Of a DNA stretch of 64,000 bases, positions 6,639 through 64,000 are shown one piece after another; the first letter of the stretch is position 1, and each line of letters opens with the position of its first letter. The notes below the pieces were generated by a model. That model worked only from the letters and a program-made list of their open reading frames with translations, did not search any database and was not told the origin of the DNA. The DNA is from Sugiyamaella lignohabitans (lineage: Eukaryota; Ascomycota; Dipodascomycetes; Dipodascales; Trichomonascaceae): positions 5,146,001-5,210,000 of the forward strand of contig NC_031672.1 in NCBI RefSeq assembly GCF_001640025.1, written 5' to 3'. Made by a program: the position numbers and the translations under genes.

Positions 6639-7154
6639 TTTCGAACTGTTTCTCTCCAGACCCCGACGTATAGCTGGTGGTGACCTCAGTTAGTCCTAAT
6701 GTCAGCCAAGGCGCATGTCCACCCTGTGACCTTTAAAACGATATTCACACCTGTACGTCACGTGACATTTCGGTTGAAAAAACTGGTCTAAAGGGCCATT
6801 AACCCCTAAATCCCCACTGCCTCCGGCGGCTGGGGCTCCGCCCCAGACCCTGGTTGCTCCTCTCGCTTCGCTCGAGTCGTTGCGCCGACGGTCCCGGCAG
6901 TCTCCTGCGAAGCAGGAGCAACCAGGGTCTGGGGCGGAGCCCCAGCCGCCGGAGGCAGCACCCCCATACCATGGGTACTGGAATCCGGTTTTATTGAAAA
7001 CATTTAATAAAAAAACCGAGAAGTTAGGGAGCGTTGAGAGCCCGAGGTCGGAGTACCACAACCGCTATCTTATCTCAATGCCGATCATTTTGGCAGATGC
7101 GAATATGCAATAAGGACCGATAGAACCGCGGATCGTCGTCATTTCCACAATCAA
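6639..7154. other. Divergent intergenic region BUR1 / ETR1 carrying a palindromic element
   Basis: This shared promoter interval of about 515 bases contains a complete palindromic GC-rich element (6818-6957). Apart from this element no gene or RNA was recognised. Confidence 0.6.
6818..6957. repeat. Full palindromic GC element, copy 1 (B arm left, A arm right)
   Basis: The outer ends TGCCTCCGGCGGCTGGGGC and its reverse complement form long inverted arms. The left arm ends in the CTCTCGCTTCGCTCGAG hairpin (type B), the right in CTCCTGCGAAGCAGGAG (type A). Each arm also holds a GGGGCTCCGCCCC hairpin. It lies in the BUR1/ETR1 promoter interval. Confidence 0.92.
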
Positions 7155-8318
7155 TTGCTGAAGATGTTTTCGTTATCACCAGGTGCCAGAGGGCCGTGGA
7201 GAGCTATTAGTAGTTTTGAAAGGATAGGGAGGAGCTTGAGATACTCTTCGACAGTTTCTCGAGCCATTATCTATTCGGAGTATGGTAATCCCCGGGAGTG
7301 CGTGAAGGTGTTTGAGCACAAGCTCGAGGCTCCTACTGGAAGCCAGGCCATCATCCGGCTTTTGGCAGCTCCTATTAATCCCTCGGATATCAATCAGATT
7401 GAAGGTGTGTATCCTAGCAGACCAGAATTGAGTACCAAGATTGGTACAACCCAACCATCCGCTGTCGGCGGTAATGAGGGTGTCTTCGAGGTCGTTTCGG
7501 TTGGTAACGGTGTCAGCTCATTGAAGGTTGGTGACTGGGTGCTGCCTGGAGCACTGAATTTCGGAACTTGGCGCACTCACATCTCTGTAGACGAATCTCA
7601 AGTCTACAAATTGCGTTCGTCCGAGGGACTGACTCCCCTTCAGGCTGCTACTGTGTCTGTTAATCCGACCACGGCCCACCAGATGTTGACGGAGTTTGTC
7701 AACCTCCAAAAAGGTGATTGGTTTATCCAAAATGGTGCTACATCTGGTGTTGGTCGTGCTGCTATTCAATTGGGCAGAATCTGGGGCCTCAACTCTATTT
7801 CTGTGATTCGAGACAGAGCAGAGCCTGATCTTGCCAAAATCAAGGATGATCTGTATTCGTTAGGAGCTACTCATGTAGTGACTGACAGCGAGCTAAATGA
7901 TAAATCTATCAAGAAACAGATTGATGAATGGACAGGAGGAGCATCAATTCAACTAGGATTTAACTGTGTAGGCGGCAAGTCTGCTACTAATGTTGCTCGT
8001 CAATTGGGCCACTCGGGTCAGCTAATCACATATGGTGGAATGTCTAAACAGCCATTGACTTTCCCAACCTCGTTGTTTATTTTTAAGAACTTTATTTCTC
8101 GTGGATACTGGCTGTCTGAATGGAGCAAGAAAAACCCCCAGGGCAAATTTGCGGTTGTTGAGAAACTGTTGGATCTGTACCGTGCTGGAGAGCTCACTGA
8201 TGTTCCTGTTACCAAGAACACTTGGAGAGAGAGTAGCAGTAATTCAGAAATCGAGGAGACTTTTAAAACTGCCATTGACAATTCCAAGACCGGCAAGCAG
8301 CTTATAGAACTTGTGTAA
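7155..8318 (+). CDS. ETR1: Mitochondrial trans-2-enoyl-CoA/ACP reductase Etr1
   Basis: Single exon, 387 residues, medium-chain dehydrogenase/reductase superfamily (MECR/Etr1). An Arg/Ser-rich N-terminus fits a mitochondrial targeting sequence; starting at the second Met (7164) would not change this. Family motifs include INPSDINQIEGVYP, the catalytic-domain segment VGGNEGVFEV, and the NADPH-binding stretch FIQNGATSGVGRAAIQLGR. Etr1 catalyses the last, NADPH-dependent step of mitochondrial type II fatty acid synthesis, needed for lipoic acid and respiration. The stop codon is followed after only four bases by an aconitase-like open fragment. Confidence 0.95.
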   Translation: MLKMFSLSPGARGPWRAISSFERIGRSLRYSSTVSRAIIYSEYGNPRECVKVFEHKLEAPTGSQAIIRLLAAPINPSDINQIEGVYPSRPELSTKIGTTQPSAVGGNEGVFEVVSVGNGVSSLKVGDWVLPGALNFGTWRTHISVDESQVYKLRSSEGLTPLQAATVSVNPTTAHQMLTEFVNLQKGDWFIQNGATSGVGRAAIQLGRIWGLNSISVIRDRAEPDLAKIKDDLYSLGATHVVTDSELNDKSIKKQIDEWTGGASIQLGFNCVGGKSATNVARQLGHSGQLITYGGMSKQPLTFPTSLFIFKNFISRGYWLSEWSKKNPQGKFAVVEKLLDLYRAGELTDVPVTKNTWRESSSNSEIEETFKTAIDNSKTGKQLIELV

Positions 8319-8322
8319 GTAG

Positions 8323-8502
8323 CTTCTCGGACTGACCGAGTTTGCTCCCGACAAGAACGTGACTCTTGTTGTCAAGCCCAAGAACGGCGAGTCCTGGGAG
8401 ACCCCTCTGTCGCACACCTACAACGCTGAGCAAATCGAGTGGTTCAAGATGGCCGCTGCCAAAAAACATACTGGCCTTCTCTCCCTCTTCATATATATAT
8501 AG
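8323..8502 (+). pseudogene. Aconitase C-terminal fragment (no start codon)
   Basis: An open frame runs from just after an in-frame TAG at 8320-8322 to TAG at 8500-8502, without any methionine start. Its translation (LLGLTEFAPDKNVTLVVKPK, later SHTYNAEQIEWFKMAAA) matches the extreme C-terminus of mitochondrial aconitase, which in eukaryotes ends near a GL(T/K)(E/D)F.PGK ... LNHTFNxxQIEWF(K/R)AGSALN pattern. The last homologous residues are near 8463; the typical GSALN end is replaced by unrelated sequence. Codons are biased toward C/G-ending forms (GTC, AAG, CTG, ACC), as expected of a fragment from a highly expressed gene. It is probably a partial duplication of ACO1 rather than an expressed gene. 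Confidence 0.8.
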
Positions 8503-8573
8503 CAAAGATACGACAAAAGAATCTAATTAGGATACCTGTTGAATATTCCATGTAATTTATGTTCCGGGCCTGG

Positions 8574-8631
8574 TGCCTCCGGCGGCCGGGCTCCGCCCGG
8601 ACCCGTGGCTCCTCTCGCTTCGCTCGAGTCG
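8574..8631. repeat. Half palindromic element, B arm (degenerate)
   Basis: TGCCTCCGGCGGCCGGGCTCCGCCCGG followed by CTCTCGCTTCGCTCGAGTCG: the left arm of the GC element with a shortened first hairpin. A right-arm half lies 183 bp downstream in the opposite sense (8815-8872). Confidence 0.8.
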
Positions 8632-8814
8632 TTTACGTCGGGAATCGTGAACAGCGAGGGGACCCCCCCAAGCCCAGCTACAATAGGTCATTTAGTGGCT
8701 ATTTAAGTAATTATATAATATAACGGAACAAGACCTTATAGTATAAATGCTGTTATAGACATTTTGTGCTAGATAAACTATGGATCTGGTCCCAAAACAA
8801 CCCCAGGGTCCAGA

Positions 8815-8872
8815 CGCCCGCGGAGCGGGCACAACGGGGTCTGGGGCAGCGCCCCAGCCGGGCCGGAGGCCA
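8815..8872. repeat. Half palindromic element, right arm (C type)
   Basis: GCCCGCGGAGCGGGC hairpin, then ACAACGGGGTCTGGGGCAGC and GCCCCAGCCGGGCCGGAGGC. Together with 8574-8631 it could be the far end of one element with an enlarged middle. Confidence 0.75.
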
Positions 8873-10353: not shown

Positions 10354-10373
10354 GGTTCGTTCGTTCGTTCGTT
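10354..10373. repeat. GTTC microsatellite
   Basis: GGTTCGTTCGTTCGTTCGTT, about four and a half tetranucleotide units. Confidence 0.8.
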
Positions 10374-12640: not shown

Positions 12641-12791
12641 TGCCTCCGGCGGCTGGGGCTCCGCCCCAGACCCTGGTTGCTCCTGCTTCGCAGGAGTCAC
12701 AGACGCCGCTGCTGACACCCTACACGTAACCGACTCGAGCGAAGCGAGAGGAGCCACGGGGTCTGGGGCAGAGCCCCAGCCGCCGGAGGCA
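12641..12791. repeat. Full palindromic GC element, copy 3 (A left, B right)
   Basis: Left arm ends in CTCCTGCTTCGCAGGAG, right arm in CGACTCGAGCGAAGCGAG; both outer ends read TGCCTCCGGCGG / CCGCCGGAGGCA. The middle contains an unusual GACGCCGCTGCTGACACC spacer. A C-run follows the right end. Confidence 0.9.
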
Positions 12792-14016: not shown

Positions 14017-14149
14017 TGCCTCCGGCGGCTGGGGCTGCGCCCCAGACCCCGCTGCTCCTCTCGCTGCGCTCGAGTCGGCGTGTGGGGGCCCCCCGTCGCT
14101 CACGAAGTGAGCACAACCAGGTCTGGGCGGAGCCCAGCCGCCGGAGGCA
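14017..14149. repeat. Full palindromic GC element, copy 4 (B left, C right)
   Basis: Left arm carries the CTCTCGCTGCGCTCGAG hairpin. The right arm carries a GCTCACGAAGTGAGC hairpin (C type) and a slightly shortened GGGCGGAGCCC. A run of about ten G precedes the left end and a C-run follows the right end. Confidence 0.88.
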
Positions 14150-14775: not shown

Positions 14776-14926
14776 TGCCTCCAGCGGCTGGGGCTCGAAA
14801 ACAGACCCCACTGCTTCTATCGCTGCGCTCGACCCGGTTCCCTCGGCCCGCCAGACTGTGCCTGCCGAATCTCCTGCAAAGCAAGAGCAAACAGGGTCTG
14901 GGGCGGAGCTCCAGCCGCCGGAGGCA
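14776..14926. repeat. Full palindromic GC element, copy 5 (B left, A right; diverged)
   Basis: TGCCTCCAGCGGCTGGGGCTC at the left, GAGCTCCAGCCGCCGGAGGCA at the right. Several hairpin pairs are mutated (CTCGAAAACAGACCC, CTCCTGCAAAGCAAGAG). A run of C follows at once. Confidence 0.85.
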
Positions 14927-15167: not shown

Positions 15168-15306
15168 TGCCTCCGGCGGCTGGGGCTCCGCCCCAGACCC
15201 TGGTTGCTCCTCTCGCTGCGCTCGAGTCGGTGCGTCCACGGTCCCAGCCAACTCCTGCGAAGCAGGAGCCACGGGGTCTGGGGCAGCGCCCCAGCCGCCG
15301 GAGGCA
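15168..15306. repeat. Full palindromic GC element, copy 6 (B left, A right)
   Basis: Near-consensus copy with both internal GGGGC-GCCCC hairpins and the GGTCCCAGCCAACTCCTGCG spacer seen in several copies. Confidence 0.92.
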
Positions 15307-15873: not shown

Positions 15874-16012
15874 TGCCTCCGGCGGCTGGGGCTCCGCCCC
15901 GGACCCTGGTAGCTCCTCTCGCTGCGCTCGAGTCGGTGCGTCTACGGTCCCAGCCAACTCCTGCGAAGCAGGAGCCACGGGGTCTGGGGCAGAGCCCCAG
16001 CCGCCGGAGGCT
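15874..16012. repeat. Full palindromic GC element, copy 7 (B left, A right)
   Basis: Near-consensus; preceded by GAGGGGGAGGGG and followed by a C-run. Only about 110 bases separate it from copy 8, which is in the opposite orientation. Confidence 0.92.
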
Positions 16013-16124: not shown

Positions 16125-16264
16125 TGCCTCCGGCGGCTGGGGCTCTGCCCCAGACCCCGTGGCTCCTGCTTCGCAGGAGTTGGCTGGGATAGTCGACGCA
16201 ACGACTCGAGCATAGCGAGAGGAGTTACCGGGGTCTGGGACGGAGCCCCCAGCCGCCTGAGACA
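16125..16264. repeat. Full palindromic GC element, copy 8 (A left, B right)
   Basis: Left arm near-consensus; right end diverged (CCGCCTGAGACA). The shared spacer TTGGCTGGGATAGTCGACGC is present. Confidence 0.9.
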
Positions 16265-16422: not shown

Positions 16423-16562
16423 GGCCTCCGGCTGCTGGGGGCGCTGCTTAAGACCCCGTGGCTCCTGCTTCGCAGGAGTTGGCTGGGACAGTGGACGCAC
16501 CGACTCGAGTGCAGCGAGGCGAGCTACCAGGGCCTGGGGCGGGGCCCCAGACGCCGGAGGCA
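16423..16562. repeat. Full palindromic GC element, copy 9 (A left, B right)
   Basis: Diverged left end (GGCCTCCGGCTGCTGGGGG) but intact CTCCTGCTTCGCAGGAG hairpin and CGCCGGAGGCA right end. Confidence 0.88.
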
Positions 16563-16857: not shown

Positions 16858-16995
16858 TGCCTCCGGCGGCTGGGGCTCTGCCCCAGACCCCGTGGCTCCT
16901 CTCGCTTCGCTCGAGTCGTTACGTGGTGGAAACCAGTGACTCCTGCGAAGCAGGAGCAACCCGGGTCTGGGGCGGTGCTCCAGCCGCCGGAGGCA
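16858..16995. repeat. Full palindromic GC element, copy 10 (B left, A right)
   Basis: Near-consensus arms with a distinct spacer (TTACGTGGTGGAAACCAGTG). Confidence 0.9.
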
Positions 16996-17060
16996 CAAAG
17001 GGATACCCCCCGTATAGACCCCCGTAAAGCACCTGCATACCGTATGCTAGGACCGGGGAG

Positions 17061-17123
17061 TGCCTCCAGCGGCTGGGGCTCCGCCCCAGACCCTGGTTGC
17101 TCCTCTCGCTACGCTCGAGTCGG
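17061..17123. repeat. Half palindromic element, left B arm
   Basis: TGCCTCCAGCGGCTGGGGCTC through CTCTCGCTACGCTCGAGTCG, without a partner arm directly behind it. Confidence 0.85.
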
Positions 17124-17511
17124 GCGTGGGGGTGGCCTCGGCTGGGAGGGGGCCGCTGGCGGGCGTTGGGTGGTGGTGTGTGTTTTTTGGCGGGCGGACG
17201 AGGTGCGAGGTGCTAGGTGGTGGTGGTGGTGGTGATGTGCATGTCACGTTCCAGGAGTGACCCGGGGCTGCGGTATCAGGCAATAAATTGGCTGATTCCC
17301 ATGGTGGCCATTTGGGGGCCGCTTCAGCGTATACGGGGTGAGCGAGCGAGTGAGGAAGCAGCGACCAGCAGCGAGCAGCGAGCCAGCAGCACGGTTGCGG
17401 CACGAGCATGTCCCGGGCCGGCATTCTCTCAGCGTCACCTGCAGACCAACCACGACGCTCTTCCCTCTCCCCCCCTCCTTCCCTCCCCCTTCCCTTCCAC
17501 CGCTCCACGCC

Positions 17512-17573
17512 CGACTCGAGCGAAGCGAGAGGAGCAACCAGGGTCTGGGGCGGAGCCCCAGCCGCCGGAGGCA
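17512..17573. repeat. Half palindromic element, right B arm
   Basis: CGACTCGAGCGAAGCGAGAG followed by the consensus GGGTCTGGGGCGGAGCCCC and CCGCCGGAGGCA end. Both this half and that at 17061 are B arms, so they are unlikely to be two ends of one element. Confidence 0.85.
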
Positions 17574-22435: not shown

Positions 22436-22491
22436 TGCCTCCGGCGGCTGGGGCTCCGCCCCAGACCCTGGTTGCTCCTGCTTCGCAGGAG
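22436..22491. repeat. Half palindromic element, left A arm
   Basis: Complete A-type left arm (TGCCTCCGGCGG to CTCCTGCTTCGCAGGAGT), directly followed after about 22 bases by a full copy in the same orientation. Confidence 0.88.
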
Positions 22492-22513: not shown

Positions 22514-22656
22514 TGCCTCTGGCGGCTGGGGCGCTGTCCCAGACCCCGTGGCTCCTGCTTCGCAGGAGTTTTCGCGAAGGGGCTGTGGACGCAACGACTC
22601 GAGCGCAGCGAGAGGAGCAACCCGGGTCTGGGGCGGAGCCCCAGCCGCCGGAGGCA
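22514..22656. repeat. Full palindromic GC element (A left, B right)
   Basis: Left arm slightly diverged (TGCCTCTGGCGG, GGCGCTGTCCC), right arm consensus. With the preceding half copy this makes a one-and-a-half-unit array. Confidence 0.9.
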
Positions 22657-23655
22657 GCACCCACCCCAACTGGTCCCGTGTGACGCCGCCTGCAACTGGC
22701 GATGTTGCCAGAAAAGAAGCCCGTGAGGGGGTGGCCAGGGCGGGCAGCTCGTCTGTTGGTGGCCCGAACTGGGCTGCAGCGAGAGGAAACGTTTTCTTGG
22801 CTAATATGGATGCAGGGCTCGAAGAAGAACAATGCGTGATAGCGGCAGTTATCAGGAAAGGAGAGTGTGCGAAACCCCAGAAAAGAAAACAAAAAAAAAA
22901 AATGGCGGCTGCCAGGTGGTTTCAGATAATCCAATGCCTAGTATGGCATATGGCATTTTAAGGCGTTTTTTAACAGCAAACTTAAATTTTATATGAAAGT
23001 ATATCATGCGTGTTGCCGGCTGTATTGTCCGGTTATATCCAGACAGGCTGACAGGCTGACAGGCTGTTTCAGACCGAGCACCTCATATGCCAAGTTCTGG
23101 ATCGATAGATATACACGTTTGGACGACCAAGAAAGCAAGAAAAAGGAGAGCCAGTAAAAGAAACGGGGTGCTGATTGGCATGGACCAGTCAGGTGGACTC
23201 CGGTCGGCGGCTGAATAGGGAAAATACCCGGATCATGGGCGCTGCCCACCATTTAGAGTTTGGGTTGATGCCTGTCAGGTTCGTGGTGCCTGCCTCGTTG
23301 GTTGCAGCTTGCCCACTAAACTTTAAACTGTAGACAGCAAGTTCCACATACCCACTAAAAACGCCCTCGCCGCTCCAGACAAAGAAACGACATGATGCAA
23401 CGCTATTTAACCGACCTAGGTCAAACAGGCGACTCAGGCGACCAACACTGCCCACCCTCACTTGCATCAATCTGTCTGACGCAAGATAAGAACCGGCCAT
23501 ACAGGAGCAACATCGGGCCACCAACAGCATTCACGACCCTGAAACCGGACACACCCGATCCACGATCGCGGGCCACGAGACCTCCGATCCCACCATCCTC
23601 TTCACGACCCTGTTTCTATTCTGGTAACAAGGGCCTGGTACCACGGGAGGGGGTG

Positions 23656-23797
23656 TGCCTCCGGCGGCTGGGGCTCCGCCCCAGACCCTGGTTGCTCCTC
23701 TCGCTGCGCTCGAGTCGTTCCGTCTCCGGTCCCCTCACAAACTGCTGCGAAGTAGGAGCAACCAGATTCTGGGGCGAAGCCCCAGCCGCCGGAGGCA
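23656..23797. repeat. Full palindromic GC element in duplication unit 1 (B left, A right)
   Basis: Left arm consensus; right arm diverged (CTGCTGCGAAGTAGGAGC, GATTCTGGGGCGAAGCCCC). Preceded by GGGAGGGGGTG and followed by a C-rich flank. Confidence 0.9.
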
Positions 23798-24085
23798 GTC
23801 CCCCACCCTCCCAGAGGGATTTTAGGGAGCAAAATATTATATACAGCCCGTAATGAGCCCGGTGGGTTGTGCAGGACCCTGTATTTTGAGTTATGATTTG
23901 GAGATTATCTCGGTTGTGATCGTGGAGTGGCTTGTGCGGCATGGGCGGCGCGGGCGGCGGGAGTCAGGTGTGGTTTCCGAAGATGCACGGCCGTCCTAAG
24001 TAAATTGGATAAATATCATTTATTACACAGGTTTGTTGTTACTGTGAAATAAATTAGCTTGATAAAGCAATCAATAACATACAAA

Positions 24086-24271
24086 ATGGATGATGTTAAA
24101 AGACCTAGAGGTCTTGACAAAGGCGCACAAAGTATCGCTGCTTTCATGTTTTTTGCATTAGTTTTAATAATCCTCCAGACGGTAGTACTTCAAGATATTA
24201 CGAGTCAGCTCAAGGCACAGTCTGAAATTTTGCGAAATATTAATAAATCAATAAGCCAAAGTACAAATTAG
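24086..24271 (+). CDS. Small single-pass membrane protein, copy 1 (unknown function)
   Basis: The frame is open from ATG at 24059, but the ATG at 24086 has the better yeast context (ACAAAATGG) and is taken as the start (61 residues). The protein has a short basic N-terminus (DDVKRPRGLDKG), one membrane segment (about 17-37, AAFMFFALVLIILQTVV) and a polar, probably helical tail (DITSQLKAQSEILRNINKSI). No family is recognised. A second copy lies 1239 bp downstream. The tail is nearly identical between copies while the membrane segment changed but stayed hydrophobic, which suggests a real, constrained protein. Confidence 0.55.
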   Translation: MDDVKRPRGLDKGAQSIAAFMFFALVLIILQTVVLQDITSQLKAQSEILRNINKSISQSTN

Positions 24272-24788
24272 CCATAGGCCATCACGAAGTCTCTGTAATC
24301 GAGAAAAGATGCATTTGGAGTGATGTTTAAGAATCAGAGGGTTGTTGAAGCCATAGTTGAGAGGTGGCTTCAGGGACTGAACGAAGAAGTATTTGCATAC
24401 TAAGATCAGATGGGATGGGATAGGCAATGGCTGAAAATGTTGACGATAAGCAGTAATATAACGTGGCAGAGTATTAATATCACCATTCCCGGAACGAAGA
24501 AGAGGAATCTTAAGCGAGTCACCAGTACTATAAGACTGCTGTGGAACAGATAAAGACTGAGATGGCTTAGGTAATGCGGAGTGTGAAAGAGCATGACGGT
24601 GAGCATCAGGAGAGTCAGGAGACTGAGGTGGACCAGGGGGACCAGGGGGACCAGAAGAGGAATATGTATGTTGAACAACAGTGGGAATTGAACTGGGAAC
24701 TGAAGTTGTAGTGGGAACCTGGTAAGAATCCAACAAAGGGGAAGGAACCGTAGGAATTGAAGAAGAATCCGAAGTGGAAGGAGGCAGT
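24248..24788 (-). pseudogene. Gag-like retroelement relic, copy 1
   Basis: The minus-strand frame is open from just after an in-frame stop at about 24788. It encodes a Pro/Ser/Thr-rich start (SSSGPPGPPGPPQSP) and then GDINTLPRYITAYRQHFQPL and a hydrophobic stretch. Layout and composition resemble the Gag of fungal LTR retrotransposons; no protease, reverse transcriptase or LTR is visible. Its 3' end overlaps the end of the small membrane-protein gene on the other strand. A family assignment cannot be made by eye. Confidence 0.35.
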
Positions 24789-24920
24789 TAAGGAATATAA
24801 CCGGAAGCATTGAGGGGCATGAGCCTGAAACCGGACACACCCGATCCACGATCGCAGGCCACGAGACTTCGATCCCGCCGTCCTTTTCACGACCCTGTTT
24901 CTATTCTGGTAACAATAGCC

Positions 24921-25047
24921 TGCTTCCGGCGGCGACCCTGGTTGCTCCTATCGCTGCGCTCGAGTCGTTCCGTCTCCGGTCCCCTCGCAAACTCCTGCGA
25001 AGCAGGAGCAACCAGGGTCTGGGGCGGAGCCCCAGCCGCCGGAGGCA
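24921..25047. repeat. Palindromic GC element in duplication unit 2 (B left, A right; internal deletion)
   Basis: The left arm lacks the TGGGGCTCCGCCCCA hairpin (reads TGCTTCCGGCGGCGACCCTG); the right arm is consensus and better preserved than in unit 1. Confidence 0.88.
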
Positions 25048-25324
25048 GTCCTTCACCCTCCCGGAGGGGTTTTAGGGTGCAAAATGTTATATACAGCCCG
25101 TAAGGGGCCCGGTGGGTGTAGCAGGACCCTGTTTTTCGAGCTATAATTTGGAGATTTATCTCGGTCGTAAATCGTGGAGTGGCTTGTGCGGCGTTGGCGG
25201 CGGGTGTCAGTGTTTCCGAAGATGCACGGCCGTCACAAGTAAATTTGGATAAATATCATTTATTACACAGGTTGTTGTTATTGTGAAATAAATTAGCTTG
25301 ATAAAGCAATCAATAACATACAAA

Positions 25325-26539: not shown

Positions 26540-27285
26540 ATGGCTTCCTCCGACGCACAAAACGTAGCCCCTCAGGCTGTATCGTCCAAACTGGGCGCCT
26601 CCACAGTCCAAGTTCCCGATGGACACTCGGTCACCAAACGTCTTCAGAGCGAGCTCATGCAACTGATGGTGAGTATTTCCTGGAGGGTCACATGCCTCCG
26701 GCGGCTGGGGCGCTGCCCCAGACCCCGTAGCTCCTGCTTCGCAGGAGACTGCTGCGACCGTCGACGCAACGACTCGAGCGAAGCGAGAGGAGCAACCAGG
26801 GTCTGGGGCGGAGCCCCAGCCGCCGGAGGCAGGCCCCACCCCCCAGAACACCGGTAACTAACTGATAAACGCAGATGTCGCAAACACCAGGAATCTCGGC
26901 GTTTCCCGAGTCGGACTCGAACCTGTTGCAATGGACAGGTACTATTGACGGACCCGAGGGCACGCCTTATGAGGGTCTGAGTTTCAAGATCTCGCTGCAC
27001 TTTCCTCAGAAGTATCCGTTTGTGGCGCCCACTTTGAAGTTCATCAGTCCTATGTGGCACCCTAATATCGATATGGCAGGAAACATTTGTCTAGATATTC
27101 TTAAGGAGAAGTGGTCGGCTATTTATAACGTTCAGACCATTCTATTGTCTCTTCAGTCGCTGCTTGGTGAACCCAATAACAGCTCGCCTCTCAATGCCGA
27201 GGCTGCTAGTTTATGGGACCGTGATCCTGCCGAGTACAAGCGTCGTGTGCTGCTCAGATCGCATGGAGAAGGTGGTAGTGCTTAA
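26540..27285 (+). CDS. UBC11: Ubiquitin-conjugating enzyme E2, UBE2C/Ubc11 type (intron contains a GC element)
   Basis: Two exons, 26540-26668 and 26875-27285, giving 179 residues, the same length as human UBE2C. Exon 1 ends in [11 protein letters not shown] and exon 2 continues [20 protein letters not shown], matching the family without gap. The active-site Cys is residue 115 ([16 protein letters not shown]), and [13 protein letters not shown] is the family signature. UBE2C works with the anaphase-promoting complex to ubiquitinate mitotic regulators such as cyclins and securin. The 206-nt intron starts GTGAGT, ends CTAACTGATAAACGCAG, and holds one complete palindromic element. Exon 1 ends on a codon boundary and exon 2 begins with ATG, so exon 2 alone could be mistaken for a truncated E2. 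Confidence 0.95.
26693..26831. repeat. Full palindromic GC element inside the UBC11 intron (A left, B right)
   Basis: Consensus-quality copy filling two thirds of the 206-nt intron; donor lies 24 bases before it, branch-like CTAAC about 25 bases after it. A C-run follows the right end. Confidence 0.93.
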
Positions 27286-28495: not shown

Positions 28496-29196
28496 CGTGT
28501 CACTTGTACAACATCGAGCTTGGATCACGAACTTTCATTTATAAATCATCACCAGCCGCGCGGGTCTCCCCTGGTCCACCACTCGGTTCAGCACAGTCAG
28601 GGCTCCACTGACCTCCACTGGGGCCATTGGGGTCGAATCTGGCGATGCTAACTCATAAACAGACTGTGGTAATAGTGTGCTCCCATTGGGGCCTGCATGG
28701 CCACTGGACCCTGAGGTGGACCCTGCATAGGGTCCCCGGACTGCCTCCGGCGGCTGGGGCTCTGCCCCAGACCCCGTAGCTCCTGCTTCGCAGGAGACTA
28801 CTGGGACCGTCGACGCAACGACTCGAGCGCAGCGAGAGGAGCTGGGGGGTCTGGGGCGCAGCCCCAGCCGCCGGAGGCAGACGGCGAGAAGCTAGAAAGT
28901 GATGATTGTATACAATAATACACATGCTATAAACCGATACCCAAAAACACAATAAAAAACACAATAAAAACCACAAATAAATACCCGAACACAACATAAA
29001 AAACCCGAAGTCATAATAGTAATAATAATAGTAAAGTAGCAGTAGCAGTACTGAACAACAGCTGCGAGAGGAGTCCAATACTGTTCAAACAGTTAACCCA
29101 AACCAAAGAACAACAACAAAAAAAATAATAAAAAAAAAATACAATGATGCCAGATCGTCACAAATAAATTAAACAGGAGGGAGAAAACAATGGAAT
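28496..29196. other. Intergenic region IES4 promoter / FUN19 3' end
   Basis: About 700 bases with a full palindromic element (28742-28879) and an A-rich downstream part (AATAAAAAACACAATAAAAA, 28950-29150) likely belonging to the FUN19 3' region. Confidence 0.55.
28742..28879. repeat. Full palindromic GC element (A left, B right)
   Basis: Near-consensus copy with the ACTACTGGGACCGTCGACGC spacer typical of the family. Confidence 0.92.
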
Positions 29197-33400: not shown

Positions 33401-34022
33401 TGTTTCCAGCCCGCTGGTTCTCCAGACCGGTTTCCTCGACTACCGTAAAAGCTCTACTGGCTCACAAACTAGGACTGGTGGGGCCAATGGCACGATTTGC
33501 GGGCGAGGGGGAGTTTGTCGGTCCCGTCTTTTGCCTCCGGCGGCTGGGGCTCCGCCCCAGACCCCGTGGCGACTCTCGCTACGCTCGAGTAGTGCGGGTG
33601 GTGACGACAGAGCGAGGATGGGTCTGGTGGATGTGTGATGTTTTGTACTGGACGGATGGTAATGGGTCTATCGAGGCGCGTTGAAAGGTACTTTTGACTC
33701 AGCAAATAAAAATTTTAATAATAACTTATATAAACAGGTGTGATTCGGACCAGAAATGAATAAAAATGTTTCCGGCCGGATCTTAAATTAATTAGACACA
33801 ATCGAAGATTGCGCTTGATAGATTCCATTGGCGCTTCACCAAGTAGATGCACATGCAAAATATTTTTCATGGTAGTAAAATGGTAGTGTGGTTGTTAGGT
33901 AGAACGATAAGCAATTTTAGTGTAGTTTTCTTTGGTGGCTGTATTCGGGGGAACCCAAGTATTCTTGTGGATTGCTTGCTCTTTTTATTTGAGACGTACC
34001 GTGGACAAGATATGAGCTGGAT
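30433..34022. other. Long intergenic region FUN19 / GIS2
   Basis: About 3.6 kb without a gene I can support. A 91-codon frame at 31221-31496 is Lys/Asn-rich with A-runs and matches no family. A palindromic half-element lies at 33532-33591. The rest is AT-rich with T- and A-tracts; part must be the FUN19 promoter and the GIS2 3' region. Confidence 0.45.
33532..33591. repeat. Half palindromic element, left B arm
   Basis: TGCCTCCGGCGGCTGGGGCTC through CTCTCGCTACGCTCGAG; the partner arm is absent. Confidence 0.87.
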
Positions 34023-35381
34023 TTAAGCAGACTCGGCCTTAACAATAGCTGGGCTGGATGAGATGATTGGAGCTGTCACTTCTTGATTGGCAAGTTGAGA
34101 AGCTTCAGAGTCGGCTCCGGAACCAACATCAGAAGAAGTGTTGTTGGATGTCGACTGGGGACACTGGCTAGCCACATGGCCTGGCAACTTGCAAACATAA
34201 CAAACCTTATCCTGATCAGCATGAGCACAGTCTTTGCTGACATGGCCCATCTCACCGCACTTGTAACACTTTTGGCCCTGCCTACAGTCCTTGCTTAAAT
34301 GACCGAAACCACCGCAAGAGTAGCATTGCTTACGGAACCCTCTGGAATTGCAGTTTCTTGCAATGTGTCCAGTTTTGCCGCATTTATAGCATTCAACAAG
34401 GCTGGAAGTAGCGGGTCCAGTAGGAACAGCGGTACCAGCAGAGCTGGCAGCAGCAGACTCTGAGTCCTCAAGCGAGCTAGCAGCAGCATCGGGATTTTCA
34501 TTGGAACTACTAGTACCAGGAAGCGAAACAGAAACGGCACCGGATCCAGATGTAGTCGATGCAGAGCCAGAAACCGAAGCTTCAGTCTCTGTAGAACTGG
34601 CGCCGGGAACAATAACGACTGCCTTACGAGGTTCTTCTTTGCACTCTCTCAACAAATGGCCGGCTTTGCCGCAGTTGTAGCAAGATTTTTCTTTCTCAGG
34701 CTCCTGACAGTCTTTCGACAGATGTCCATCATCTGATCATAGTTAGTTAAGAGCTCGCGAAGCGAGCACAACAGGGTCTGAGGCAAGCGCCCCAGCCGCC
34801 GGAGCCACAGCCCGTCCGCAAAATCTCACTTACGTCCGCAGTTGTAGCACACAGGGTTTCCAGATTTGGGACAGTCCTTCGCCTGGAACTTGTTAGTATG
34901 TTGGTCAGGTGCAGAGGAGAATAGTGGTGGGTATGGCGGTTGACCGGATCCACAGCTAAGAAAGGCCGTCAATTGACATGTCGGATGTATGGAACCCACA
35001 ATGACCAATAAATAGATAATATGATCTGTAGCCATATGACACTGTCAAACGACAAATGGCCAGCAAGGTCTTATTCCCTGAAATTTGATGTTCTCAAGCT
35101 CATGTGTCCAGCGTTGTGTCGAAAGTGGTGATGCGAGATGATCCATGATCATGCCATGCCAGGTCATCCATGCGACACTATCACTAAGTTGAAAACCGGG
35201 CAATAATTAGCCACTAACTGCTTACCTGATGTCCAAAATGACCACCTTTAAACTGTGTTAGTATAGATTCAAGATTCGAAAATGTGTCAACAGGCGTCAG
35301 GCGGATATCAGATCACCAGCTGCCCTACTCACAATTATAACATGTTCTCTTCAAGCTTGGCAAGTAAGCGGTGTTTCTCAT
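34023..35381 (-). CDS. GIS2: CCHC zinc-knuckle protein Gis2/CNBP type, four exons with a 20-nt exon
   Basis: Minus-strand exons 35333-35381, 35226-35245 (20 nt), 34834-34882 and 34023-34732 give 275 residues. Seven CCHC knuckles (C-x2-C-x4-H-x4-C) appear, as in Gis2 and human CNBP: the first is CYNCGHFGHQAKDC, assembled from three exons, and the second (CYNCGHDGHLSKDC) spans exons 3 and 4. A Ser/Ala/Thr-rich linker of about 80 residues separates knuckles 3 and 4, which makes it longer than yeast Gis2. The family binds single-stranded nucleic acid and mRNA and affects translation and stress granules. All three introns have GTAAG/GTGAGT donors and TACTAAC or CTAAC branch motifs. A gene model starting only in exon 4 would lose three knuckles. 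Confidence 0.9.
34751..34806. repeat. Half palindromic element inside GIS2 intron 3 (C arm)
   Basis: In the gene's sense strand: CTCCGGCGGCTGGGGCGC, CAGACCCTGTTGTGC and a GCTCGCTTCGCGAGC hairpin. It makes up over half of the 101-nt intron; without it about 45 nt would remain. Confidence 0.85.
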
Positions 35382-37857
35382 TGTTCAATATCCCAGCGAA
35401 AAAATAAATATGACCAAAAATAAAACAAATATCTTGGATAAGAGCGGCCCTTGCAATTGGTTTGGAATGAAGAAATCAAACGTTAATGATTGTTTAGTCG
35501 TTGCCGAAAATTTTTAGTATATTGGTGAAAACTGTATTTTTTTTTTTTTTGAACACTTATATTTTTTTATTTTTCTGTATGAAATTTGATGTATATTATT
35601 TTTTTTATTGTTCTATAATGGATGTGCGCGGTTAGGGACGTAAAAATGCACATGCAAGCTAAATCTGCATCCCATGGGCAGATCAGATAAACTCCCAAGA
35701 GGCGTTTGGACTCGACTGTTTCACCTGTTAAACGTGGATAGAAGCCCTCTATAGCCAATGAACACGTCTCTGGGTCCTGTCAATCATTTCTGAAGCGAAG
35801 TAGCAAAATGAGATGCCATTTTGTAATTCAGAAAGTGCGTTTGCTTTCTGGCATCTGCTATTAATAAATTATTCTGTAGATGCAGTCACCAGCGCCGTCC
35901 GGCACCCGCCGTTGGAATGCGATGCCTGGCCCGTTGCCATTGTGTGTGACGATTACTGCTTCTCGGGATGATGTAACGGTAACCCGAGGAACTGACAAAA
36001 AAATCCCTCTTTTCTTTAACTGGTACCCGCAATAAAGCAAAATGTGTGATTTCATTGTTAGAATAAATGCTTGCAATGGACTGTCCATTTTAACTCAACT
36101 ATTAGCAATTGAATTTTCTTTCATTAATCAAATGATGCCGAACTAGTATTATGTAATTGTCAGCTGCCACTGCTGATTTGGGCCGTGTGTCCATGCGACT
36201 CTGGAGGCTTGCTCGCGAACCTGTGTGCCTGTCATCTGTCGGAATGGGAGGCGTCGCTCCGCAATGGCTGGCTGCAATCGCTACAAAGAGTGAGTCGTCC
36301 CTGCCGTATCCACGAAGAAGAAAGGTAATTGATCTCTCGATGGACATGAACATTTTTGATGTGCCCTAGCGATCCAACCCAGAAGAGACTCGGCTAACAT
36401 TGGTCTGCAGCGGAGATCTTGCTCTGTCGCCGGAAAACAAAAAAAAATATTATCTTTCTCGCCATTGGTCAAATAAGTATCAATCTGGGCCTGTCCTGGT
36501 TCTGATCTTGTTTGTTTGGCAAATACCTCCGGCGATTGGGACGTCGTCTCGCTGCGCTCGAGTTGGTGCAGAGACCCTCCCTACTGCTCTTAGTAATTGT
36601 GAAATGCCGAGTGTCAATTGGCTGGTCCTTGTTCATGTACCGGTTAGCAGCCATAATTGCTAACGGCAAATCATGAGGGAATCTGTGTCCATCTCTGTTG
36701 TTTCCCTTTTTTTTAAATTTTTTATTTCTACTCAGAGTCCAAAATTACAACAGAGTGTTCATGAATTGCTGTAGGATAAACGAAGCTGACGAGAACAGTA
36801 TTCGCATCTTTCGGTAGTGTTCGGACTCCCGGAAAAATATTCGGCATGACGGGTGGTCAAAACCCACCATGATCAAAATTACATGGCATTTCTGTTCAAA
36901 CGATATTTCCTCACAATAGGAGTTCATTTTCTTTCGAGAAGCCTTCGCAATTCCTTGATAATAACTATCTGTTTTCGTCATCTGATTTCTATTCAGATTG
37001 GCCTTCACAAAGGCAGTGGTAAATGGCATATGGCTTCCAAAGGCATATGGCTTCCAAAGCAAACTGATTAAACTAATGATATAGATACCAAGACTTTGAT
37101 TGATACCTGCTAGAAAACTCACAAAAGTTGCAACGGGAGAAATGAAGACGAAACCAGAGATGTCAAGCAGTTATATTCATTAGAAAGAAGTGGTCTGCTC
37201 TAGAGTTAGCCCAGATTGTTAAATTCTAATTCTCATGTTCCTTGTGTGGATTCTTCTAACTTTGCATCAACAAATACGCTAGTCGTTGCCTTTGCACTAA
37301 ATCCAAGAATAAAAGGTATCTAGGAATTTGTTGTTCTTAAGGTGACGCTGACAGTGCGTGTAATTTCAAGGGCCTAATGAATTTCAACGAGCTTATTTCA
37401 ACTGTGAGAGCACATTATTATGCTCAACAAAGCCCAAAGCTGAAGATAAACGAGAGTATAGAGTCGCAGATGTACACAAAATTAAAAGGTGTATTTCGAG
37501 AAGAAGAAAGTACCGTTCCAAAACATGGATTCTACTGTTCACACCTTCTATAATAAGGCTCACTACTTGGTATAGAATCAGTTATCAAATCTGTTTATGA
37601 AAGGGAGTAGTTTTTTATATTGGTCATTATGGAAGGTTGTTACCTTAGTGGTTAACAATTTTTTAGACATGGGTGTAGCGAGCTCTACGCCCTTTCCAAA
37701 ATGGGTGATAGTACAGAATGCTCTGAAGATGGATTCCGGTCTCAGAGGGAGTACTCCACGCCTAATTTGTGATAAATAGAGCAGTATAATTGGTTTTCTT
37801 TGGGTATTTCAATAACTTCAGTTGCTATTCAGATAGAGGGCCGCTATCTAGTTTTCA
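35382..37857. other. Intergenic region upstream of GIS2 to the 5S gene
   Basis: About 2.5 kb. A 125-codon minus-strand frame (36745-37122) and shorter frames match no family. A strongly decayed piece of the palindromic element lies at 36534-36564, and a T13-type tract near 35540. Otherwise nothing is recognised. Confidence 0.45.
36534..36564. repeat. Decayed fragment of palindromic element
   Basis: TACCTCCGGCGATTGGGACG followed by TCTCGCTGCGCTCGAGT: both end and hairpin of a B arm remain but the part between is deleted. Confidence 0.65.
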
Positions 37858-37975
37858 GCTACGGCCATATCCAGAGTAAAATAAGATTTCCCGTCCGATC
37901 AATCATATTCAAGCCTCTGAGAGCCTTGATCAGTAATGCCGTGGGAGACCAGGCGTGAACAGAAGGTGCTGTAGT
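37858..37975 (+). rRNA. 5S ribosomal RNA (single dispersed gene)
   Basis: About 118 nt with the universal landmarks GGCCATAT, TTTCCCGTCCGATCAA, GAGAGCC, GTGGGAGACC and GGTGCTGTAG. The termini pair (CTACGG with CTGTAG, with a G.U). Helix II pairs CAGAG (37872-37876) with CTCTG (37915-37919); these bases differ from the S. cerevisiae sequence on both sides but still pair. A T6 run right behind the gene (from 37975) serves as polymerase III terminator. It is alone, not in an rDNA unit, as in Yarrowia and other yeasts with dispersed 5S genes. The sequence is more diverged than usual, so a slightly decayed copy is possible. Confidence 0.85.
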
Positions 37976-38127
37976 TTTTTGCATCCTATACTTTTTCTCT
38001 ACTGATAATTCTTCGAAACAAAAACGTTTTATCGTAAATTTGCTTAAATATTGGCCGGTAAAGTTTATAGTATATGAGACACCTGGCTAGTTATGAGAGA
38101 TACCCCTAGCCTTTTTGGCATTAGTCT

Positions 38128-38224
38128 GTCAAAGTGGCCGAGTGGTTTTAAGGCGTTGCCCTGCTATATTTAAATAGTTAGGCATTGGGCTCTGCCCGCG
38201 CAGGTTCGAGTCCTGTCTTTGACG
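38128..38224 (+). tRNA. tRNA-Ser(GCT anticodon) with a 13-nt intron
   Basis: Acceptor GTCAAAG pairs with CTTTGAC; the D-arm TGGCCGAGTGG, the long variable arm TTGGGCTCTGCCCGC and the T-arm CAGGTTCGAGTCCTG are those of fungal serine tRNAs. The anticodon loop CT-GCT-A is followed by the intron TATTTAAATAGTT (38167-38179) after position 37, as in S. cerevisiae tS(GCU). Position 27/43 is a T-T mismatch. TTTTT at 38230 is the terminator. It lies about 150 bases behind the 5S gene on the same strand. Confidence 0.93.
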
Positions 38225-57182: not shown

Positions 57183-57461
57183 CCCAGATTTTTTTTTCAA
57201 TTTGTACTTTTTATATATATTTATTGTTCCTTCAACGGCAGTACCGCCCCCACCCCGACCCACCGGCCTCAACACCACGACTCGAGCGCAGCGAGAGGAG
57301 CAGCGGGGTCTGGGGGCAGAGCCCCAGCCGCCGGAGGCAGGTCCGAGCCCCAATTGTATACATCGCAATATTAATTAATTAAACAAGCTAACTGCACAAA
57401 AACAGAAGGCATTAGAATTGGCAGAGGAGCATCTATAGAAAAGTCTTTTTAGGCTGGCTGT
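57183..57461. other. Convergent intergenic region histidine kinase / CYSTM gene with half element
   Basis: About 280 bases; AT-rich 3' region of the kinase gene, then a palindromic half copy (57278-57339), then AT-rich sequence before the CYSTM stop. Confidence 0.55.
57278..57339. repeat. Half palindromic element, right B arm
   Basis: CGACTCGAGCGCAGCGAGAG, then GGGTCTGGGGGCAGAGCCCC and CCGCCGGAGGCA. Confidence 0.87.
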
Positions 57462-58177
57462 TTAGAAGAGACAGTCTAAACACAAGCAGCAGGCCATACC
57501 GGCACAGAGACCGCAACAACAATCGTCGTTGTTTTGGGCAGGCTGTTGCTGGATGTATACAGGCTGGGGAGGACCAGTCTGGTAGTATCCTTGCTGGGGA
57601 GGTGGAGGGCCGCCGTACTGTTGATTAGGTTGTTGAGGAGGGTACTTGAATCTGTTAGTTGATGCATTCTTCAATTAAGCTCATGCTGCAACAGGGGGTG
57701 ACAGGAGAAATGTGGGCTCTGGAGAGGGGAATACGCCTCCGGCGGCTGGGGCTACGCCCCAGACCCCCTTGCTCCTCTCGCTTCACTCGAGTCGGTTTGG
57801 CTCGGAGTGCCGAGATGGGGGATAAAAGCAACTCGAGTTGTTGAGAAGACAGGAGACAAGGACGAGGTGGGGAGCAATGTTGGAATGCACAAGTGCCGGC
57901 GACAGTGGTGAAATGAGGTATAGCAACTGTGACATGAGAACTTTGGGATCATTTGGTGGTAGGATTTGTTTCTTCGTCCAGTTGCATTGATTGAGTCGAG
58001 ATCATGACAATTGTCACATTTCACCTGTTACTCCCCGTTGCAGTTCGTCTGTTGTGTCGCTTTGTTATCTTTGTCATATCTTTGTAACCTAAATCCGGTC
58101 GCCGGACATGAAGTGAGCATGCGCTCTGGAGGATTCTAAATCACTTATCACAATCACTTATCACTTACGTAGGACAT
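57462..58177 (-). CDS. Small CYSTM (cysteine-rich transmembrane module) protein with a 9-nt first exon
   Basis: Minus-strand exons 58169-58177 (ATGTCCTAC) and 57462-57644 give 63 residues beginning MSYYPPQQPNQQYGG. Such MSYY...P/Q/G/Y-rich starts followed by a Cys-rich end (DDCCCGLCAGMACCLCLDCL) define the CYSTM family (S. cerevisiae YDL012C, YBR016W), tail-anchored stress-response proteins of the plasma membrane. The intron (57645-58168, 524 nt) starts GTAAGT and ends AACTAACAGATTCAAG, and carries a palindromic half-element. An unspliced reading from an ATG at 57674 would replace the conserved start with unrelated residues. The exon 1 call rests on splice signals and family fit; an RNA read would settle it. 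Confidence 0.78.
57734..57795. repeat. Half palindromic element inside the CYSTM intron (B arm)
   Basis: CGCCTCCGGCGGCTGGGGCT, ACGCCCCAGACCCCCTTGC and the CTCTCGCTTCACTCGAGTCG hairpin with one mismatch. Confidence 0.87.
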
Positions 58178-61089: not shown

Positions 61090-64000
61090 ATGCCGTCAAC
61101 AGAGGTCGCTACAAGAAACAAAAAGGTAGCCATTGTGAAGAGCAAAGATGATAAGAGGGCTACATACCTGGCTCCTGTAACAACCGGCTACAAAAACTTC
61201 TTTTTCACGCAGAATGCCTTTACTCAGAGCGTGATTCCACGGCCAGTGGTTGAAGGCCTTATCCATAGTCTAACACTAGAACTTAAGGCGAGAGGTGAGT
61301 AACGAGTTGACAATAATACTTTCTGTTGTGATATCGAATGGCATAAATGAGTACTGAAACGGACGGAAGCAAGAGGAATCTAATCGGCTGCAGTTTCTGA
61401 GTCAATAAGTGGACCAAAGGCTAACAAAAATAGGTGTTCTCACCCCGTTCGTGCTCTTGCCCTATCGACCAGAGAGCGATGCCAAAGACGTAAGAGATTT
61501 TGTGACTGAGGTGTTTCCCAGACATCAACCTCCTCTCGAGGGAGACAACCTTCTTCGTCTGATAAGAGTGGCCGATCCATATGTAAGTACGACCCCGAAA
61601 TCTCCAGCTCGCCAAGCGAGCACAACGGGGTCTGGGGCAGCGCCCCAGCCGCCGGAGGCAACCTGTCCAATATCCAAGAGAGACTAACATAAGCAGTGTT
61701 TAGCAGCAGTACTGAAATGGTGCTGGTCACGACTACCAGGAGGTATTGTGTCGTGGAAGGTATACAATCAATTCAAAGAAGAAGAGATGAAAGCAGGATT
61801 TCCTATGGATGCATTTGTGAAGATTGTGCCGCGATGTGTGGAAACGGGGACCCATGGTAATATATTGTTTGACTTTTTCGACTTGCTGGCGTCGATTGTG
61901 ACGCATGGTCGTCAGAATGGGCTTGTAGGCCGGAAAGTGACGCGACTGGCAGGTACATGGGCGTTCGATATTAAAAAACCTGGTGCTAAGGAATCTACAA
62001 GTTTTGCAGAGGGCTTGGCAGCTTGGAGTTTGGCAGCTGAGGCAACAAATCATATGTTTTTTGCATTTGTGAGGTCATTATCAGCGGCACCAAGACCAGG
62101 AGGAGGGACTTCGGCGCTGCCTAGACCATTGGAAAATTTACTGCTGACTGAACAGGACTATCCACCCGAGCCTATTTATAAATCTAAGCTAGTGGCCGTG
62201 CCAATGGTGACGCTGACAGTAGGGAAACTAAGTTCTAACCCACTTGTTCTATTAAGAAGAGTGGCCAAGACCATTCGGTTCGATAATCCCAATGTATTTG
62301 CTACGGAGGACGACTTTAATACGCTTTATTTCTTATTTAATGAGCCTGACACCATTGAATATAAGATTGCAGATGAATCTTTACGAATTATTAAAGAGAT
62401 TGTTAATGAGAACCCACTTGTCACTGACCACCCTATTTTAATAAAGGAAACCCCTAAATTGGCATATGATTTAAGAGGCAAAACATGGTCTAAGTTTTAC
62501 AACCATGCATTTATAGACCCAGCTACTGGAGATCTTCGACGACCATTGACTAACTATGTCTACGATGATGAGCAATTGAAAGACATCAAACGAGTTGGTG
62601 TGCCCAGTCAGGAGGTGAAGGCCTTGCCATACCCAGATAGCCCAGATGTTAGAGTTACCAAGCATGGAGTAACATCTAGACCAGCCCTAGCAGCAAGTCA
62701 AGATGAATGGGATGTGTTCTTGAAGAAAAGTTATGGACAGGCTGAAAAACGGTCGTCGCGAATTAGCGCTGATGGACTGGTTACGGCGGGAGTATCCCAG
62801 ATTGCTATTTCGGATTTCTTCGTATGGGTATGGATGTCGACACTCAGTCAGGAGCAGACTGAGGTTCGCAAAGCGACTTTCGGTCGATCTGTGGTGGTCG
62901 AACTTGTAGTTTCTCCAGGGGAACGACGATGGGTTGTGGTTGAAGAAATCTTACATCCAGAGCCACCTCCATTAAAGCCCAAGCCAGAGATAAAAGATAG
63001 ACCATTGCCTCGGGTTGTGCCTCGTCGGGTCGTCAGCAGTCCGGCTGCCCAGGTTGTTAAGCGCAAACCTGTACCACCATCGCCAGCTCTTACTGCGAGT
63101 CCCCCACCAGCACCAATTCCCCCCGAAGATCAACATCATTATCATCATTATTACCATCACCACAAAAAACCACGAGATTTGCTTCTTGCACCAACAGAAT
63201 ATCTAGACCCACTAGTGGATGCCCTGGCCAAGAGATTGCAGCAGAATAACATTATCGCAGATGCCACTACTCCTAGACCCGAAAGAGATATACGCAAAGT
63301 ATATGTTGACCGTGAAATTCAGACGGATTTGGACGATAGTGTTCCATCCATGACCATTTCGAATCAACAGCCGACAAATGCCATCGGGTCTCGGAACGTT
63401 TCCAACCCCTATTCACCACCACCTCCTTCTGGAATGCACAATCTATCTATTCAGACTGAATCAAATGAGTCAAACGCACGAGAACCAGATGTAAAGTCAG
63501 TGGTGCAACCAGAAGTACGCTTCGACAAACCTCTACCTCATCAACCACAGCTTGAGGAGCATCTGCCGGAACCTTTCCCTCCAATTCCTGTATCGACACC
63601 ACGACAGACAAAGGAAGATGATGAGAAAAGTATTTATTACACGCCAAAGTTGAACGATGAACCATCTGAACAACCAATTGAGCCTCTTGATAGATACGAA
63701 CTTGAGCAACAGCGACAAGAGCAGAAACAACTTCAACTACAACTTGAACAGTTGCAGAAACAACTACAATTACAACAGCTCCAAATTCAACAGCACTGGT
63801 CTAGCGCTCCTTCCATCTCAGCAGCAGCTGTTCAACAACCAATCTCAACAACCACGACTTCTGCTGCCGAATCCACTGTCCTACCAGCAGAAACAACTGG
63901 GGCCGCGTCAGCCCTTGGAGCATCTGGTCCTTCGGTTGTCACTCAACCATTGAGCGAGGCATCAGCATCGGCTACAGCACCTCCCACTATCACTAATGCG
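61090..64000 (+). CDS. MSB1: Msb1 polarity/morphogenesis protein (3' end outside window)
   Basis: Exons 61090-61294, 61434-61582 and 61697 to the right edge; 886 residues visible. Splicing gives KARGVLTPFVLLPYRPESDA and ADPYCLAAVLKWCWSRLPGG, then VSWKVYNQFKEEEMKAGFPM and HGNILFDFFDLLASIVTHGR. This is the conserved N-terminal Msb1/Mug8 RhoGAP-like domain. The later part is Pro/Gln-rich with a DQHHYHHYYHHHKK tract and a Q/L-rich coiled coil (QQRQEQKQLQLQLEQLQKQL). Msb1 coordinates Cdc42 and Rho1 at bud sites in S. cerevisiae. Intron 1 ends GCTAACAAAAATAG; intron 2 (114 nt) contains a palindromic half-element and ends GACTAACATAAGCAG. Confidence 0.9.
61607..61660. repeat. Half palindromic element inside MSB1 intron 2 (C arm)
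   Basis: GCTCGCCAAGCGAGC hairpin, then ACAACGGGGTCTGGGGCAGC and GCCCCAGCCGCCGGAGGCA. The same arm type as in GIS2 intron 3 and at 8815-8872. Confidence 0.88.

Follow-up and report, generated by a model that had tools for sequence, protein, structure and literature searches.

In this work we analysed a 64,000-nucleotide stretch of DNA from the wood yeast Sugiyamaella lignohabitans (contig C1, positions 5,146,001-5,210,000; hereafter, the window), which contains many copies of a GC-rich palindromic element built from inverted hairpin arms. The explanation that we favour, with moderate confidence, is that these elements are mobile but non-autonomous palindromes with a behaviour like that of REPINs (doublets of repetitive extragenic palindromic, REP, sequences), that they probably descend by horizontal transfer from Desulfovibrionaceae-type bacteria, and that they were amplified in the yeast nucleus. 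The match between the yeast and bacterial arms, which locally extends to every letter, suggests the passage of a mobile palindrome from bacteria into the yeast nucleus, with multiplication there. In its behaviour the element works like a REPIN, and in its sequence it belongs with the palindromes of Desulfovibrionaceae. REP-type palindromes are regarded as bacterial. If true, our explanation would mean a rare cross-domain spread of a non-coding mobile element, shared by bacteria and thousands of yeast chromosome sites, and would offer a culturable eukaryote for asking how gene-less palindromes move.

Arm structure and the pairing of arms

Each arm is ~56-62 bp long and contains two hairpins: the box TGCCTCCGGCGGC leads into a mini hairpin (TGGGGC-TCC-GCCCCA); GACCC comes next, and a short link connects it to a tip hairpin, the sequence of which defines the arm type (A, B, C or D). 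The original prediction of a dense family, with more than 20 copies or halves in the 64 kb, was borne out: with 0-3 mismatches allowed, the window holds 36 occurrences of the shared element end, where shuffled sequence would give 0.02. Matches to tip A number 26 (0.11 expected; a perfect hairpin is scored once per strand), and those to tip B 19 (0.01 expected). The mean column identity is 97% across 29 window arms. In the whole genome (four contigs, 15,932,016 bp, i.e., 15.93 Mb), a 27-mer allowing up to 3 mismatches detects 3244 + 3294 = 6,538 arm matches, and the reversed control none. Local statistics are based on 250,054 bp of yeast DNA, comprising the window and further stretches, several of which were picked for high arm density. 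Arms were typed by a script with fixed mismatch limits for each tip class, those outside the limits being dropped, which gave 169 typed arms (99 B, 58 A, 11 C and 1 D; the mini hairpin was unparsed in 6 of them) and 64 inward pairs (46 A/B, 12 B/B, 5 B/C and 1 A/A). Further arrangements are solo arms, tandem arms ~80-105 bp apart, one outward-joined pair and one fused double element.

The 13 full A/B copies that had been predicted in the window are present: both arms are recognised in 12 (138-151 bp), and one is truncated; six are A-left and seven B-left. The predicted copy in which B is paired with a third hairpin, C, was also recovered. As anticipated, an arm can fold with its partner into a long foldback, as calculated for one A/B copy (6818..6957; DNA -80.6 kcal/mol, z -17.1). 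The further claim that A/A and B/B pairs never occur was wrong. The window itself holds a B/B pair (17061-17573), and genome-wide counts show that pairing depends on the length of the core between the tips. These counts, which may be lower bounds, cover exact A and B tips and exclude copies with mutated or C tips; a few of the long-core matches enclose an extra arm (e.g., C1:1339211). For cores of 10-40 bp, 1139 of 1167 pairs are A/B (564 A-left and 575 B-left, a balanced ratio), with 4 A/A and 24 B/B, whereas for cores of 41-101 bp only 109 of 273 are A/B (61 and 48 in the two orientations), with 9 A/A and 155 B/B (Fisher p 4e-110). Thus, the A/B rule holds for short cores, and its strict form is ruled out for long cores by the excess of B/B. 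Likewise, the picture of a single directional element inserted in both orientations stood with respect to its dispersal and its two orientations, but not with respect to directionality. Seventeen of the 24 short B/B cores are 37-40 bp long and seven are 31 bp or shorter; in the 250,054 bp sample, the 12 B/B cores begin at 48 bp.

The interiors of the two pair classes also differ. The A/B core is mostly ~22 bp with the common theme GGGACCGTCGACG; distant A/B cores have a mean identity of just 51%, and the likeness of cores among near neighbours is borderline (p 0.05). In B/B copies, the B arm often extends to about GGGCGTGGGG, beyond which the interiors differ. Parts (115-462 bp) of 6 of the 12 local B/B interiors were searched against the genome, in a search that skips simple repeats, and each matched its own place only; mutual comparison of all 12 gave one weak signal in 132 comparisons. 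The possibility that the long B/B interiors are captured donor DNA was rejected, as no second copy was found by this search for any of the six queried. In the region G000:C1:4629717-4645658, five A/B copies have cores of 85-86 bp and lie mostly 3.0-3.4 kb apart, with one gap of 6.3 kb, a spacing suggestive of a ~3 kb unit repeated in tandem.

These data can be accommodated by a constraint on size. In an A/B copy, the two unlike tips together with the core leave up to ~54 bases unmatched between the arms (hand count). Since B/B pairs, the tips of which are able to pair, are common only at cores of at least ~40 bp, we infer that A/B pairing is not a rule of direction and reflects a minimum loop instead. 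This minimum loop would explain jointly most of the A/B and B/B interior lengths and those of the sphingomonad copies described below, and could stem from the mobility reaction itself or from the loss of tighter palindromes. A/B pairing, which had seemed to indicate direction, thereby becomes a testable rule on hairpin loop size. In the mechanism that we propose, the unit would consist of the two inverted arms, and the piece between them would be a loop of lesser importance. The short-core form (A tip, ~22 bp core, B tip) would be copied as a whole, accounting for nearly all short-core copies, while the arms would also come to surround unrelated, unique DNA, mostly as B/B. Movement would probably take place as single-stranded or hairpin DNA.

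Signs of mobility and relation to known repeats

REPIN doublets are described, in the excerpted text of the article by Bertels and Rainey (2011; PMC3116915), as inverted, extragenic, variable in their interiors and better conserved than singlets. The yeast arms present a similar picture. The 250,054 bp sample offers 73 cases in which neighbouring arms are separated by 100-320 bp, and in 56 of these the arms face inward. Only 1 of the 169 arms lies within an open reading frame (ORF) of at least 300 aa, such ORFs covering 38.9% of the sample (p 1e-34), and 5 lie within ORFs of at least 200 aa (cover 40.9%). Doublet arms carry fewer substitutions than singlet arms (0.36, n=112, versus 1.0, n=56; p 0.004), as scored on the first 33 arm letters with the loop omitted; better conservation of doublets is a prediction that was put to the test for REPINs in PMC3116915.

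Evidence for copying comes from neighbouring elements. Two copies in opposite orientation, 582 bp apart, are 99% identical across the element, and their 40-bp flanks are 50-60% identical, which is about the level of the other pairs compared. Similarly, the copies at 15168 and 15874, 706 bp apart, are 96% identical with flanks of 48-49%. We read near-identical copies with unlike flanks as probable copying events with ends at TGCC and GGCA. This agrees with the original prediction of a non-coding, dispersed, palindromic and probably mobile element present in both orientations. The nearly purely intergenic location and the strong folding could also be explained if the arms were immobile structural or regulatory hairpins, such as terminators, boundary elements or replication-fork elements, kept between genes by selection. 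We consider this very unlikely because the occurrence of 87 arms in 70 kb, the solo and tandem arms and the divergent cores fit spread better, and because near-identical neighbours with unlike flanks and the difference between doublets and singlets fit spread better than functional placement. The very dense region in question is G000:C1:190001-260000; none of the four contigs has arms in its first 10 kb.

The original prediction had likened the elements to foldback miniature inverted-repeat transposable elements (MITEs) and to mobile GC clusters, and this likeness proved loose: no target-site duplication was found, the copies are nuclear, and REPINs are closer in behaviour. Target-site duplications of 2-9 bp, which had been proposed as a check, were not above shuffles in the 64 pairs for any k examined (2-6, 8 and 9), whether the ends were taken as they stand or shifted by up to 2, and directly adjacent repeats were seen for 2-mers in 2 of 64 pairs (4.0 expected) and for 3-mers in 1 of 64 (2.8 expected), without AG or ACT direct repeats. 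A eukaryotic foldback MITE, i.e., a DNA transposon reduced by deletion and mobilised by a cut-and-paste transposase acting on terminal inverted repeats, would account for the long inverted terminal repeats, the absence of coding capacity, the thousands of arms and the near-identical copies with unlike flanks. Foldback elements and MITEs share with the yeast elements the long inverted repeats, the non-coding nature and the high copy number, but we think it unlikely that the elements are MITEs. Besides the lack of target-site duplication, each of the six long B/B interiors that were searched occurs once in the genome, which implies that those long units have not been copied whole, and the same arms are carried by bacteria. 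To our knowledge, there is no known transposon with these ends.

Mitochondrial GC clusters resemble the yeast elements in being short, GC-rich, dispersed yeast palindromes, and merger and shuffling have been described for them (PMC4478555, in excerpt). However, the window carries nuclear genes in a 5.9 Mb contig, so that the elements are nuclear, without a mitochondrial location; they also lack the AG/ACT duplication that, according to the same excerpt, abundant clusters carry as direct repeats, are ~3x the 42-bp cluster and have bacterial relatives.

Compared with REPINs as portrayed in the excerpts, the yeast elements are alike in having two inverted palindromic units with a poorly conserved spacer, an extragenic location, an excess of doublets, better-kept doublets and no coding capacity. 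They differ in being nuclear, in the two-hairpin design and ~56-62 bp length of their arms, in lacking the GTAG foot (the arm consensus starts with TGCC, and the GTAG tag is absent at both ends), in that no Y1/RAYT transposase was found in the genome, and in number, since the 6,538 yeast arm matches stand beside a stated figure of over 100 REP copies for a bacterial genome (PMC2817692, in excerpt). Bacterial interspersed mosaic elements (BIMEs), in which the segments between REPs are without mutual homology according to the same excerpt, are likewise similar in having palindromic units of several types in alternating orientation, separated by non-homologous segments of variable length; they differ in host, and the yeast arm sequence is unlike the REPs printed there (PMC2817692). 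It should be noted that CGTC-tagged repeats without a dedicated transposase exist (PMC3733652, in excerpt).

The ~13 bases outside the elements are rich in G on the TGCC side and in C on the GGCA side, reflecting either a target preference or a degenerate element edge. An outward palindrome in these flanks was considered and rejected, because the left and right flanks have no pair-specific complementarity.

Bacterial relatives and the origin of the arms

A 31-base motif with 29 fixed letters, CCTCCGGCGGCTGGGGCTNNGCCCCAGACCC, matches 3 contigs in a prokaryote collection of 84,980 species, all of which are titled Desulfovibrionaceae or one of its genera, and no viral contigs. With the hairpin left free, arms were counted in Solidesulfovibrio aerotolerans (61+67), Desulfovibrio sp. 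UBA6079 (15+16) and a Desulfovibrionaceae metagenome-assembled genome (1+1), the reversed control giving 0. In a sample across the phylum, 9 of 395 genomes match, 3 with hairpin arms as judged by eye and 6 with single, chance-like matches (reversed control, 5 matches). In a family-level survey centred on Solidesulfovibrio, 82 of 199 genomes match, with up to 101+112 arms and 2 matches in total for the reversed control; among the matches listed in this survey, some single ones are not hairpins.

The likeness of the arms extends to detail. Yeast and bacteria agree in every letter of the 13-letter box TGCCTCCGGCGGC and of the five letters that come after the hairpin, both stretches being flush, and both yeast hairpin variants, TGGGGC..GCCCCA and CGGGC..GCCCG, are present in Desulfovibrionaceae-type genomes. 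The yeast sequence at C1:214,418-214,450 is identical in 33 of 33 letters to two genomes of the Solidesulfovibrio family (L161 and L162), and the window arm at 8574 is identical to them in 32 of 32; past these letters the sequences are unlike, and a second hairpin is seen by eye in both. The composition that characterises the Desulfovibrionaceae palindromes, namely TGCCTCCGGCGGC, a hairpin and GACCC, often in inward pairs, is thus also that of the yeast arms. A covariance model built from 29 window arms matched 50 of 110 bacterial and viral loci (best E 5.5e-8), but most of these loci had been selected with similar motifs, and the E-values alone therefore prove nothing.

The bacterial arms are also organised in a comparable manner. 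Six copies fetched from Solidesulfovibrio are inward pairs of arms with interiors that vary in length and, mostly, in sequence. Among 100 of the 128 exact arms (L049, L105-L110), close neighbours (<700 bp) face inward in 12 of 13 cases, and in these 12 pairs the hairpin types, named by eye, are always unlike (p 0.026), which resembles the A/B rule of the yeast. Further relatives were found in seven contigs of the IMG/VR collection with a GC content of 0.66-0.69, which carry two-arm copies of 98-128 bp running from GCC to GGC, several of them directly before or after a terminase gene. The nearest named proteins to the terminase of one contig are from Polymorphobacter and Sandarakinorhabdus, and the other contigs encode relatives of it. 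In these Sphingomonadales-type copies, the interiors are 53-60 bp long, with one of 31 bp; those examined are unrelated, except for one common to two related contigs and one weak signal. In four Sphingomonadales-type phage or gene-transfer-agent clusters (L113, L121, L133 and L141), the terminase-adjacent gaps carry palindromes of several hairpin types in part of the contigs and lack them in the rest, and these gaps are a possible source of bacterial empty sites.

Searches of plasmid and phage collections gave 12 and 2 records, respectively, in which the match is short and confined to the mini hairpin; neither gave an arm. Six element sequences were searched for in papers and none was found, nor did titles and the starts of abstracts point to any publication on repeats of this kind from the yeast or from Desulfovibrio. 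We found no published name for the Desulfovibrionaceae TGCCTCCGGCGGC palindromes.

The bacterial arms have many hairpins and the yeast arms few, with a dominant form, which would point to transfer from bacteria to yeast. Palindromic repeats of the Desulfovibrionaceae type would thus have been transferred horizontally and then amplified in the yeast nucleus. An alternative to this descent is that the yeast and bacterial arms arose independently, the former by local invention, for instance as a nuclear counterpart of mitochondrial GC clusters that would fill breaks and be reshuffled through template switching. Its appeal is that the letters shared are few, much of them being self-complementary hairpin, and that fused and outward-joined arms recall the merger and shuffling of GC clusters (PMC4478555, in excerpt). 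Against it stand the flush identity of the box and post-hairpin letters, the presence of both yeast hairpin variants in Desulfovibrionaceae-type genomes, and the absence here of the direct repeats of abundant GC clusters (PMC4478555); we give convergence a low probability.

Several observations speak against the explanation that we favour. Yeast and bacteria share just ~33 letters per arm, the tips and interiors being unlike, and it is this shortness that keeps convergence in consideration. The six Solidesulfovibrio interiors are not unique, since 11 of 15 comparisons share stretches, including the parts adjacent to the arms. Empty sites were not detected when 58 joined flank pairs were compared with the 250 kb; the sole duplicated region carries the element in both copies. 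The yeast genome has no match to Y1_Tnp (PF01797, the RAYT family); in Solidesulfovibrio, the sequence retrieved around the two PF01797 matches (~550-750 bases to either side) is free of arms, and two further bacterial genomes that carry arms lack such a match (the genome labelled G003 has two). Since neither the GTAG tag nor a Y1 transposase was found, membership in the RAYT-linked REPs fails. Nor is the long foldback kept perfect: in A/B copies, the links of the two arms match in 13 of 44 cases, no better than chance (10.6 expected, p 0.16). With respect to the minimum loop, seven bases of the tips are paired in the best fold calculated for an A/B copy, which makes the 54-base loop an upper figure. 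Moreover, for Alu inverted repeats in S. cerevisiae the transition for tight palindromes lies near a spacer of 8 bp (PMC8053094, in excerpt), far below the ~40 bp seen here, which weakens the version of the minimum loop that is based on stability.

The mini hairpins of A/B arms match in 25 of 44 copies (21.4 expected, p 0.03), a slight effect; compensatory pairing between A/B arms was accordingly rejected for the link and is slight for the mini hairpin. In B/B copies, 8 of 11 links match (4.6 expected, p 0.02) and 6 of 11 mini hairpins (6.4 expected). The uniqueness of the Solidesulfovibrio interiors was dropped as a candidate feature on account of their shared stretches; this does not lower the likelihood that we give to the favoured explanation, the basis of which is the arms.

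A wider version of the descent from bacteria, which we put forward only tentatively, is that a single mobile palindrome family inhabits bacteria and a eukaryotic nucleus, having passed from Desulfovibrionaceae-like bacteria into the wood yeast, where it has several thousand arms. Such a family might need no element-specific transposase, requiring only the hairpin arms themselves, a minimum of ~40-50 bases in the loop and enzymes of general replication or repair.

Element copies and genes in the window

The six A-left/B-right copies are on the plus strand, at 12641..12791 (151 bp), 16125..16264, 16423..16562, 22514..22656, 26693..26831 and 28742..28879, and were recognised by matches to the end and the tips (tip A for the copy at 16423). 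The seven B-left/A-right copies are on the minus strand. Five of them, at 6818..6957 (140 bp, the copy that folds as one foldback), 15168..15306, 15874..16012, 16858..16995 and 23656..23797, have end and tip matches; the one at 14776..14926 has a degraded left arm and matches to the end and tip A, and the truncated one at 24921..25047 has a left arm without the inner hairpin and a tip B match. The flanks of the copy at 23656 are duplicated around 24818-25199; within 23640-25200, the flanks of two element copies are locally duplicated with 86-91% identity over 106-152 bp. The B-left arm paired with tip C lies at 14017..14149 (minus strand; end and tip B matches). The B/B pair at 17061..17573, to which no strand is assigned, has an interior of 389 bp, of which the 375 queried bases are single-copy in the genome.

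The remaining arms are solo. An A arm at 22436..22491 (plus strand; end and tip A matches) is in tandem with the copy at 22514. B arms with end and tip B matches lie at 33532..33592 and 57734..57794 (both plus) and at 57278..57339 (minus); a degenerate one, with a tip B match, is at 36524..36565 (plus), and the B arm at 8574..8631 (plus), with the short hairpin CGGGC-TCC-GCCCG, is the one whose first 32 letters are found in the Solidesulfovibrio family. Two C arms with end matches, at 34753..34807 and 61607..61660, are on the minus strand.

The window genes comprise MRS2, a GATA gene, a fungal transcription factor, eIF2B-epsilon and a hybrid kinase, together with 5S rRNA and tRNA genes. The nearest named relatives of the MRS2 protein include those of Blastobotrys adeninivorans (74% identity) and Trichomonascus vanleenenianus (76%), and a metagenome protein reaches 84% identity in a shorter aligned part. 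At 37857-38225, the 5S rRNA gene is followed after 150 bp by a tRNA gene of ~98 bases, which is possibly intron-bearing and for which ARAGORN left the anticodon unsettled.

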